In this document: one piece after another, positions 45,669-48,743 of the stretch
How the letters are laid out: each line of letters starts with the position of its first letter
Numbering within the stretch: the first letter of the stretch is position 1
NCBI GenBank assembly: GCA_028692635.1
Contig: JAQUWX010000008.1
Location: 1 to 48,933, forward strand
Length of the DNA: 48,933 bases
Source of the DNA: Alphaproteobacteria bacterium
Lineage (GTDB): Bacteria; Pseudomonadota; Alphaproteobacteria; UBA9219
Reading direction: 5' to 3'
Made by a program: the position numbers and the translations under genes
The notes under the pieces: generated by a model
Seen by the model: the letters and a program-made list of their open reading frames with translations, nothing else
What the model was told of the DNA's origin: nothing
The model's database searches: none

Positions 45669-48089
45669 CTATTTTCTTACACAGCGCTGGTATGACGAGG
45701 CGTCTTTAAGCGTATAGTTCTGATTGCCGTCAGTCATTCTTTGTGAATTTGCATAGTCAGCTTCTGTTCCTCCACCCCACCCGCCTTCGGTGGAAGTAAT
45801 GTAATACGATCCTCCGGTGTCAAAATTTCCTATGGACGCTTTGTTGGAATAAAGCACATTAAGCTCGTCTTTTGCCGGAAGATACCAGTCGGTATGTCCA
45901 TGGACGTTTTGCGCAGCGCACGCTCTGGCCGCCTGATAATTGCTGCCAAGGGCGCTTAGTCCCGACGTGTTGGATTCCCCGGCAGTTGTGGAGTTTATAC
46001 CGGTTATAGTGCTGCGCACACCCCATATGTATCCCGTTCTGCCTCCGGAACATGCGGATCCGTTCCAGCTCATGCCAAGATCGCAACGTGTGGTGTACAT
46101 TTTTACATTTCCGTCAGGAGATAATCCGGCATAAACGGAACCATCCGAACATATCGTGCCTATAGACGGAGAATCGCTGCAAATATCGTATCCGAAAGTT
46201 ATCCAATTTGTTCCATCGCACCCCTGAAAACGGCTGCCGTTCCACTGTATCGTTCCTGCGTGGCTGGAGTCGCAAGTATATGAGGTCGAATTAAGAACAG
46301 TGCTTGACGAACGAGAAGCTCCGTTTACGTCGAGTTTATATCCGGGTGTTGTTGTCCCTATTCCTACATTGCCGTTGCCGTCTATCCTCATTCTTTCCGT
46401 CGGAGGATTGGCTCCATCTCCTGCACCGCCTACGCCAAAGGCCATATACTCTGTGCCCCAAACTCCATTGTTAAATCCAGACTGAATTCTTCCCGCCAGT
46501 CTCACCCCTGCATCTCCATAAGGGTTGCTGTCAAATGTTGACCAAAACTTTATCATAGATTCCCGGTTGTAGGTTCCGCCGAACGGTTGCAGAGAAAGTG
46601 CAGTATCGCCGTTTCTGCTTAAAGTGGTATTGCCATCAAATATAGTTAAGTTTGGATTATTGTGATCCGTGCCCATTTTTATCCAATCGGCATGTAACCT
46701 CATTCTATTGTATCCTCCAGAAGCTGTCTTAGCCCCAAAAATTGCGAATTCGTTCGTGTTGTCGTTTGATAAATACGAGAAAATCCCAACATGTAGGGGA
46801 TAGTTAGGAGCTGTTATTCCAATTCCAACGTTACCTACATTATCAATTGTCATCGCGGGCTGCATTGTCGCGGCATCGGGGCTTTGCCGCGTTCCAAGCG
46901 TCATTGAACCGGAATTGCCGCTAATTGCTTCTGTTTTAATGTATCCAATCGCTCCGTAGCTGCCGCCAATTTGGATTATACCTCCGTCTAAAGAGCGATT
47001 GTTGCTGCTAAGAATTCTAAGATCAGCTGCATCGCTGGGGGCTGTATAGGCATTTGTCGCGCTGCCGCCTTTTATATCCAGTTTTCCTGTAGGAGAGATC
47101 ATTCCAATTCCGACGTTGCCGGATGAGTTTATCATGAAGGCGGCTCCAGATATTGCATCGGCTCCGGGAGCAATGTGAAAGGTGTTGTCGGTATTAACCC
47201 CATATGTCCACCAAAGATTGTTGGACGATGCGTCTTTTGCGGCTTGTATGATATAGCTCGCCGTGCTTGCCGCTGCGGACGCGATCTGCATTGCACGCGC
47301 AGCCCACAATCCTCCATTTATAATTGAAATACCTCCCACCGCGTGATGTTCGGCTGCGCCGGTGGGATTTATGGACAAGCTTCCGCCAACAATGTGTAAC
47401 CGATTGTTGCTGGCTGTAGTGGTTCCGATTCCCACGTTGCCGTCGCTTGTTATCCTCATCCGTTCTACGCCATTAGGTAGGAATATGATCGGAATATTAG
47501 CGGAACTAAGCCCCACACTTCCTGTGTCTCCATAGAGTCTCCCTTGTACTGTTCCGCTGTTCATTAAGTCCAATATTCCGCCAAGAACATTATTTGACAA
47601 AGATAATGTCGTGTAACCACTGTAGTTGTTGGGCGTGGTGGTTCCAATGCCGACACTACCCGATGCCGTTATGGTTAACCTGCTCATCCCCGCCGTAGCT
47701 ATGCTCACAGTGCTAGCGGTATCGCTGAACAAACCGGTAGTGATATCTCCATTGCGGCTAGGCGCTGTATTGGTTGCAGACGCCCCTAAAGCTCCTCCGC
47801 CTAATCCGCTCCAACTCGCCCCATCGCATCCTTTAAACGAAGTTCCAGTCCACTGGAGCATTCCGGCTTTTGTCCCGTCACATGCTGTTGATGTATATGC
47901 CGGTGTTGCTACTGCTCCCAACATCAACGGGCCTTTTTGAAATACAGTCCCGTTGCACTGGCCTATCGTATCCCAGTCGATGTTGCTGTTGTCGCTGTTG
48001 CATGTCTTGCCAATGGTTTTCTGAGCTGCGTGCGCAGGGCTGCACAAAAAGACAGCGATAAACAAAATCGCAAAAATAATTTTTCTCAT
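45669..48089 (-). CDS. large exported adhesin-like protein with GIGTTTP repeats and Lcl/DUF1566-like C-terminus
   Basis: About 806 residues from ATG 48089 (the ORF-track start 48125 is 12 codons earlier). Signal peptide IIFAILFIAVFLCSPAHA. Two matching modules, MLQWTGTSFKGCDGASW (about 80) and TIQWNGSRFQGCDGTNW (about 640), flank a central stretch with five variants of GNVGIGTTTP, each followed by a beta-rich, Gly/Asn/Ser-rich block, as in phage tail-fibre-like trimeric shafts. The C-terminal 150 residues, with DWYLPAKDELNVLYSN, YYITSTEGG and YQRCVRK, resemble the Lcl/DUF1566 domain. A surface fibre for attachment is likely. The ATG overlaps the upstream gene's stop (ATGA). Confidence 0.85.
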   Translation of the reverse strand: MRKIIFAILFIAVFLCSPAHAAQKTIGKTCNSDNSNIDWDTIGQCNGTVFQKGPLMLGAVATPAYTSTACDGTKAGMLQWTGTSFKGCDGASWSGLGGGALGASATNTAPSRNGDITTGLFSDTASTVSIATAGMSRLTITASGSVGIGTTTPNNYSGYTTLSLSNNVLGGILDLMNSGTVQGRLYGDTGSVGLSSANIPIIFLPNGVERMRITSDGNVGIGTTTASNNRLHIVGGSLSINPTGAAEHHAVGGISIINGGLWAARAMQIASAAASTASYIIQAAKDASSNNLWWTYGVNTDNTFHIAPGADAISGAAFMINSSGNVGIGMISPTGKLDIKGGSATNAYTAPSDAADLRILSSNNRSLDGGIIQIGGSYGAIGYIKTEAISGNSGSMTLGTRQSPDAATMQPAMTIDNVGNVGIGITAPNYPLHVGIFSYLSNDNTNEFAIFGAKTASGGYNRMRLHADWIKMGTDHNNPNLTIFDGNTTLSRNGDTALSLQPFGGTYNRESMIKFWSTFDSNPYGDAGVRLAGRIQSGFNNGVWGTEYMAFGVGGAGDGANPPTERMRIDGNGNVGIGTTTPGYKLDVNGASRSSSTVLNSTSYTCDSSHAGTIQWNGSRFQGCDGTNWITFGYDICSDSPSIGTICSDGSVYAGLSPDGNVKMYTTRCDLGMSWNGSACSGGRTGYIWGVRSTITGINSTTAGESNTSGLSALGSNYQAARACAAQNVHGHTDWYLPAKDELNVLYSNKASIGNFDTGGSYYITSTEGGWGGGTEADYANSQRMTDGNQNYTLKDASSYQRCVRK

Positions 48090-48394
48090 GGCGACACCGC
48101 CTTGCAGCAGCGGCAAGTGCCCCACACGGGAGAAACTGCCATCTCTTCACAGCTCTGGGGAGGTGTTATTGCGCTGGTTACTCCGGTGCAGGCGGCTCCT
48201 TTTTTCTCGCACAGGCTGTTGCATGTGATAGGAGCTTTGGATGTATGCACTTCAGGTGTAATCGTGAAACATGAAAGGTTTATGCCATTCGCCGGATATT
48301 TTATCTCTACATTGTCGGTTCTTGCTTGAACTGTTCCGGCGAGGCTTATGACAATCAGGGTAAACCCGATCCTTGAATATCTGCACTCAAACAT
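48086..48394 (-). CDS. small exported Cys-rich protein, partner of the adhesin
   Basis: About 102 residues from ATG 48394, which has AGGGAG 6 nt upstream; the GTG 48415 start in the ORF track is less likely. A signal peptide (FTLIVISLAGTVQA) is followed by a beta-like start and about nine Cys residues, including ITCNSLCEKKGAACTGV and WGTCRCCKA near the end, implying disulfides. No family recognised. It overlaps the adhesin gene by 4 nt, so the two are co-translated; a chaperone or fibre-base role is inference. Confidence 0.72.
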   Translation of the reverse strand: MFECRYSRIGFTLIVISLAGTVQARTDNVEIKYPANGINLSCFTITPEVHTSKAPITCNSLCEKKGAACTGVTSAITPPQSCEEMAVSPVWGTCRCCKAVSP

Positions 48395-48431
48395 AGACGA
48401 CTCCCTTGTAGGCACACATAAAGGAAGCCAT

Positions 48432-48560
48432 CCAGAGAGTTACCCTCTGGTGGCGCGGGAGTTAGTTAATCGCCAATATACGATTGCGACGGCCTTTAGC
48501 CGTGGGGCCTGGACATCCGAAGCGCTGCTTTCACAGCGCATCGCCGTCGCCTCCCGGCCA
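48432..48560. ncRNA. strongly structured region before the adhesin operon, candidate RNA
   Basis: Plus-strand coordinates. Hairpin P0 CCAGAG/CTCTGG (48432-48450) abuts P1: TGGC-CGGGAG (48451-48461, one bulged G) pairs with CTCCCGGCCA (48551-48560). Inside lie P4 AATCG/CGATT (48468-48485), P2 GCGACGGC (48486-48493)/GCCGTCGC (48543-48550) and P3 GCGCTG/CAGCGC (48522-48539). P2 competes with a local hairpin ACGGC/GCCGT (48489-48503). Read on the minus strand it would be the 5' leader of the small exported gene, ending 37 nt before its ATG. Strand, transcript and function are unproven; no known riboswitch class was recognised. Confidence 0.5.
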
Positions 48561-48743
48561 TATATGCAGGTCGAAAGGCAAACGTTATGACGGCAACGCA
48601 AATTACCGATATTGGACGAGGTAACTACACCCCGGGGATAGCCTTCTCTCTATCCTCGTTTGCAAGAATAGGACCAAATATATTAAAGATCAAATTACTT
48701 ATAAAATAAACGTATGCACTGCGAATCACGGTAAAAACCCGGC

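Follow-up and report, generated by a model that had tools for sequence, protein, structure and literature searches.

A widespread structured RNA of alphaproteobacteria and phages, built on the scaffold of sRNA-Xcc1, is probably a two-state translational switch

The DNA analysed here (the window) is a 48,933-nucleotide stretch of an alphaproteobacterium of the UBA9219 lineage (assembly GCA_028692635.1, contig JAQUWX010000008.1). Its minus strand carries, at 48560-48432, a member of a real, widespread and unnamed RNA class, which is a sister of sRNA-Xcc1 by its scaffold and has a different core. The element is probably a cis-acting 5'-leader RNA, with a core of its own on the sRNA-Xcc1 scaffold, that acts as a two-state switch of translation. 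For the class as a whole, comparison of sequences makes a cis-acting translational switch with a putative trigger the most likely reading.

The folded stretch was confirmed as a real RNA element. The minus strand of 48560-48432 has a minimum free energy of -68.9 kcal/mol, against -44.8 ± 3.6 kcal/mol in dinucleotide shuffles (z = -6.64), and none of 200 shuffles was as good; the plus strand (48432-48560) folds with a z of -4.05. When 11 homologues were aligned by MAFFT without structural information, RNAalifold predicted P1, P2, P2a and P3 de novo. P1 (10 bp with one bulge), P2 (8 bp, running on from P1 without a break on one side) and the 6-bp P3 lie where the first-pass annotation had placed them, and the CCAGAG/CTCTGG stem that it put at the end corresponds to the 3' hairpin, here named P4. 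That annotation had staked its proposal beforehand on, among other things, a stability above that of shuffled sequence and paired substitutions in P1 to P3 of homologues; both were found.

Comparison of copies shows that P1, P2 with the core and P2a, and P3 make up a conserved three-way-junction RNA. Across the 11 copies, 97.3% of cells were paired (30 to 46% in slid controls) and 10 of 27 pairs had changes on both sides. The 83 copies from the order were paired in 96.5% of cells, with 21 of 27 pairs double-changed and 405 double-change cells against 117 ± 15 after shuffling. The 94 copies from named genomes lay outside model building, but, being aligned to the model, lean towards it; they too were paired in 96.5% of cells, with 23 of 27 pairs double-changed, 559 double-change cells against 148 ± 11, and at most 47% pairing in slid controls. 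A conserved, aptamer-like structure with covariation, one of two marks of a riboswitch that were looked for, is thus present. Helices of the order-level copies contain 226 G-U and only 11 A-C cells (about 20 to 1), which identifies the minus strand as the RNA and, together with gene context, agrees with the strand proposed earlier.

All parts of the element in the window lie on the minus strand. At its 5' side the alignment of copies reveals a hairpin (GCGUU-GCCGUCAU-AACGU, loop GCCGUCA; 48582-48599), which in other copies reads GCAUU..AAUGC, GUGUG..CGCAC or GCAUC..GAUGC with an ACCG or GCCG loop, compensatory changes that were judged by eye and are unscored. Segment A (GCCUUUCGACC, 48569-48579), recognized by its own against permuted pairing energy, is the 5' arm of an alternative hairpin (ALT), whose other arm is GGCCGGGAGGC (48559-48549). 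Segment B (48543-48560) consists of the 5' strands of P1 (UGGCCGGGAG, 48560-48551) and P2 (GCGACGGC, 48550-48543), rests on the fold, covariation, RNAalifold and a swap test, and is common to ALT and P1/P2. An extra hairpin (GCGCUGUGAAAGCAGCGC, 48522-48539), seen in the computed fold and the alignment, separates P2 from the core in the window copy; only a minority of the other copies have it. The core itself (GGAUGUCCAGGCC-CCAC-GGCUAAAGG, 48494-48519), defined from alignments of copies, surrounds hairpin P2a (GCC/GGC) and has the consensus YAUGUYCARGSC-NNRN-GSCYAAAG. Its positions YAUGUYCAR..YAAAG, between P2 and P2a, hardly vary. Of 142 copies, 50 have a GNRA tetraloop on P2a and 42 a UMAC-like one (together 92). 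These features make the core resemble a binding site in which the tetraloop is docked.

The 3' strand of P2 (GCCGUCGC, 48486-48493) and hairpin P3 (AAUCGU-AUAUUG-GCGAUU, 48468-48485) both follow from covariation. Segment C (48451-48463), placed by P1 covariation and the swap test of C with D, comprises the junction AA and the 3' strand of P1, CUCCCGCGCCA; the CUCCC in it can pair with the Shine-Dalgarno sequence GGGAG at 48405-48401. P4 (48428-48453), recognized in the sequence of copies, is built around CCAGAG..CUCUGG; a short, terminator-like U run follows it in several copies, and it is absent where the Shine-Dalgarno sequence comes at once. Segment D (48401-48405) is the Shine-Dalgarno sequence just mentioned, read directly from the sequence; in the OFF fold, as computed, it is joined to segment C by 6 bp. 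It belongs to the first putatively regulated gene, whose product is a small Cys-rich exported protein (102 aa counted from ATG, 48089-48394; one of 11 in the genome) with no Pfam match. The second (45669-48089) encodes a GIGTT-repeat adhesin or fibre-like protein with a C-terminal Lcl_C domain.

The RNA is the leader of this Cys-rich protein and adhesin pair, as had been proposed, but genes of other types also follow copies. A DNA search of this genome brought up two more partial copies, each directly 5' of such a pair, and a protein search found the 11 Cys-rich protein genes, nearly all with the same leader. The covariance model raised the number of copies to 14, scattered over many contigs; inspection of the downstream genes placed nine before Cys-rich/adhesin operons and five before small XRE-type regulators. 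The approximately 11 paired Cys-rich and adhesin genes (45669-48394 in the window; L002, L003, L012 and L052-L056), on many contigs, have a conserved N-terminus and a variable middle.

With covariance model R1, 24 of the 33 genomes of the order (Micavibrio-type) proved to hold full-length copies, 83 in all and up to 24 per genome. In the class, 56 of 385 genomes had a full-length match (approximately 15%, or about one in seven sampled alphaproteobacterial genomes), as did 51 of 399 in the phylum. Public genomes and viral contigs were scanned with a 26-nt pattern of the core, drawn from the loop and not the helices, and this detected at least 93 genome loci and at least 64 viral contigs. Applied to 93 genome loci and 64 viral loci, the model gave 94 and 65 matches, nearly always at full length, with nearly all of the viral contigs confirmed; one viral pattern locus (L309) gave no model match, as expected for an incomplete copy 28 nt from the contig end. 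Organisms among the matches listed include Micavibrio, Microvirga, Bradyrhizobium, Rhizobium, Sphingomonas, Caulobacter and Hyphomicrobium. An RNA family of this size has had neither a name nor an Rfam model. One plasmid copy adjoins Tn3 and IS transposases. Two tandem copies precede one gene at L131:1382-1605, as in tandem riboswitches, and a viral contig carries three approximately 297 bp apart (L308:139-838), recalling the approximately 381-bp sRNA-Xcc1 array in Xylella.

A Shine-Dalgarno sequence (4 or more nt) with an ORF start no more than 160 nt downstream was present for 264 of 289 copies (91%), against 93 of 294 (32%) in an upstream reverse-strand control, and this excess marks the element as a 5' leader. 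The leader contains, with the Shine-Dalgarno sequence, four segments complementary in series: A with B, B with C (P1), and C with D and a few flanking bases. A:B (the ALT hairpin) and B:C are mutually exclusive. In 113 non-redundant copies the energy of A:B was -20.7 kcal/mol with its own partner and -16.6 ± 0.3 with permuted ones. For C:D it was -11.9 against -10.35 ± 0.19 kcal/mol, a match that is partly trivial, as any Shine-Dalgarno sequence resembles GGGAG, so only the excess of own over swapped counts. A swap test on the order only gave z values of -10.4 for A:B (reversed control -1.0) and -4.7 for C:D (reversed control -1.1). These tests point to the second mark of a riboswitch, alternative pairing tied to gene expression signals. 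In some copies C and the Shine-Dalgarno region share runs of 8 to 10 Watson-Crick pairs, which extend outside the Shine-Dalgarno sequence itself. Complementarity beyond that sequence is seen, for example, in L104 (CAACCUCCGG with its mate), L062 (AAACCGGGGAGU) and L109 (ACCCCCA/UGGGGGU).

Two exclusive states had been predicted for the element, and they are borne out by the covarying A:B and B:C pairings. The competitor then named, an ACGGC/GCCGT hairpin, does form in the window, yet its 5-bp version occurs in only 10 of 83 copies and it was rejected as a conserved switch; the conserved alternative, ALT, lies mostly upstream of the stretch in which that competitor had been placed. Computed OFF and ON folds were within 6 kcal/mol of each other in 40 of 60 copies, and in the OFF fold the Shine-Dalgarno sequence was paired with the 3' strand of P1 in 39 of 56. 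In the ON folds it was still mostly paired elsewhere (0.92 against 0.95), so thermodynamics alone is no proof of its release and we infer the polarity. The P3 loop of this class also pairs somewhat better with its own downstream region (-8.20 against -7.22 ± 0.18), a comparison in which the reversed control shifts too (z = -2.6); the signal is clearer at sRNA-Xcc1 loci. In other classes of the phylum, L164, L165, L169 and L179 have a three-step chain of P1 3' strand CCGGAGU, downstream GCUCCGG and Shine-Dalgarno AGGAGC; this subtype is perhaps a switch of opposite polarity.

In the proposed mechanism, folding of P1/P2 would occupy C and leave D free, switching translation on, and this fold might be held through binding of a ligand or a protein to the conserved core. 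Formation of A:B would release C, which would then mask D and switch translation off. With 5 to 24 copies in rich genomes, one signal could govern surface proteins, XRE regulators and, in phages, antirepressors. If phage antirepressors and bacterial surface genes are indeed controlled together, this would suggest that both use one signal. A:B, B:C and C:D are concrete pairings offered for testing.

Of the downstream proteins considered, 94 belong to viral and named loci and 96 to order, class and phylum loci; most had no Pfam match. The commonest families were phage antirepressor or regulator domains (Bro-N, ORF6N, Rha, P22_AR_N and AntA), HTH regulators and outer-membrane or surface proteins. 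The leader is linked to accessory genes and phages, not to one metabolic pathway. The switch may respond to a protein, to temperature or to a phage-coded RNA and not to a small molecule, a possibility of some weight although the lesser one: downstream genes point to no single metabolite, and many viral copies precede genes with the antirepressor and phage-regulator domains just listed. About a dozen unpaired core positions are, however, near-invariant across families, and the GNRA/UMAC loop is kept. Aptamers typically have such features, but so do sites that bind proteins.

Control by transcription attenuation, with P4 as an intrinsic terminator whose formation is set by P1/P2 or ALT, is unlikely. 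Copies of the window's own genome such as L002 do have GC-CCACCAAG..CUUGGUGG-U-GC followed by UUUUUG, but U runs are short in most other copies, and many copies (for example, most of those in G026) lack P4 altogether, their Shine-Dalgarno sequence beginning within 14 nt. With terminator-like P4 hairpins in several copies, transcriptional control may still play a part.

It is distinctly unlikely that the element is a stand-alone sRNA acting in trans on other mRNAs, the role published for sRNA-Xcc1. In published work, sRNA-Xcc1 is a separate RNA of approximately 88 to 100 nt with mapped ends, called trans-acting, whose targets are only predicted (PMC2996969). A short U run lies 3' of P4 in some copies of the present class, as an sRNA might have, but a leader ended by a terminator would also resemble an sRNA. 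Against a trans role, 91% of copies run straight into a same-strand Shine-Dalgarno sequence and ORF (32% in the control), and the leader covaries with the next gene's own Shine-Dalgarno sequence; at sRNA-Xcc1 loci, too, the P3 loop can pair beside the downstream Shine-Dalgarno sequence. A DNA element (an integron attC-like site or palindromic repeat) whose RNA folding is incidental is very improbable: sRNA-Xcc1 does sit upstream of symE in Xanthomonas integron cassettes (PMC12444791), and copies occur on phages and next to Tn3/IS genes, but the 20 to 1 ratio of G-U to A-C cells implies folding of one strand only, the Shine-Dalgarno sequence of the next gene is among the pairing partners, and copies in this genome are spread over many contigs with no cassette array.

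Rfam, searched over the window at gathering and permissive thresholds, gave only tRNA and a chance ES056 match elsewhere, and nothing at the element; no riboswitch class of Rfam 15 matched the window at gathering thresholds or 48400-48640 at an E value of 10. The sRNA-Xcc1 model, RF02221, did not match the window copy at E values up to 10, and no copy in the 33 genomes of the order passed its cut-off of 53 bits (the best, at 52.9 bits, being of the AAUA type). It does match distant copies of the present class, and also copies in the window's genome, at the same places, with 28 to 44 bits, below the cut-off; in 8 of 20 loci these sub-threshold alignments at the motif were full-length (1-87/87) and on the same strand. 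In the reverse search (R2), the model of the present class recovered L374, L375 and L381, RF02221 loci whose scores clear the cut-off. The first-pass statement that no described class has this layout therefore holds for the window copy, which Rfam misses, but not for the scaffold, which is common to RF02221.

Shared with sRNA-Xcc1 are the architecture (P1 GGCCGGGGG/CCCCCGGCC, P2, P2a with a GAAA loop and P3, then CACC), occurrence in mobile elements and a position leading into small ORFs and phage antirepressors. The cores differ, being YAUGUYCARG..YAAAG here and AAUAyAAUA..GAAUA in sRNA-Xcc1, and both types coexist in the window's genome, where AAUA-core copies lie at C98:25038-25122 (L154) and C93:2907-2992. 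As far as the consulted parts of PMC2996969 and PMC12189769 go, sRNA-Xcc1, with seven copies in Xylella (PMC12189769), is cast as a trans-acting sRNA and no ALT/anti-Shine-Dalgarno switch is described for it, whereas the leader position of the present class favours cis action. The P3 loop at sRNA-Xcc1 loci has a pairing energy of -9.17 with the sequence flanking the next gene's Shine-Dalgarno, against -7.24 ± 0.36 for permuted partners (reversed control z = -2.2), an excess that suggests cis control there too; the match is possibly a pseudoknot. Among loci L368-L397 this complementarity reaches 7 to 11 bp in the best cases (L371, L373 and L394). A little-understood family of "trans sRNAs" would become one branch of an apparent superfamily of cis switches. 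It is quite possible, though less likely than not, that the AUGUYCARG and AAUA cores represent two riboswitch classes on one scaffold with two related ligands, that sRNA-Xcc1 is truly a riboswitch leader and that the signal is common to host and phage genes.

Searches of the open literature for a comparable riboswitch, whether from Micavibrio, of the orphan type or linked to antirepressors, found none described. Unlike established translational riboswitches, the present candidate has only a putative ligand and no conserved metabolic gene context, and it is frequent on phages. With those anti-anti-Shine-Dalgarno platforms it appears to share an aptamer-like core, exclusive helices, masking of the Shine-Dalgarno sequence and a multi-copy regulon.
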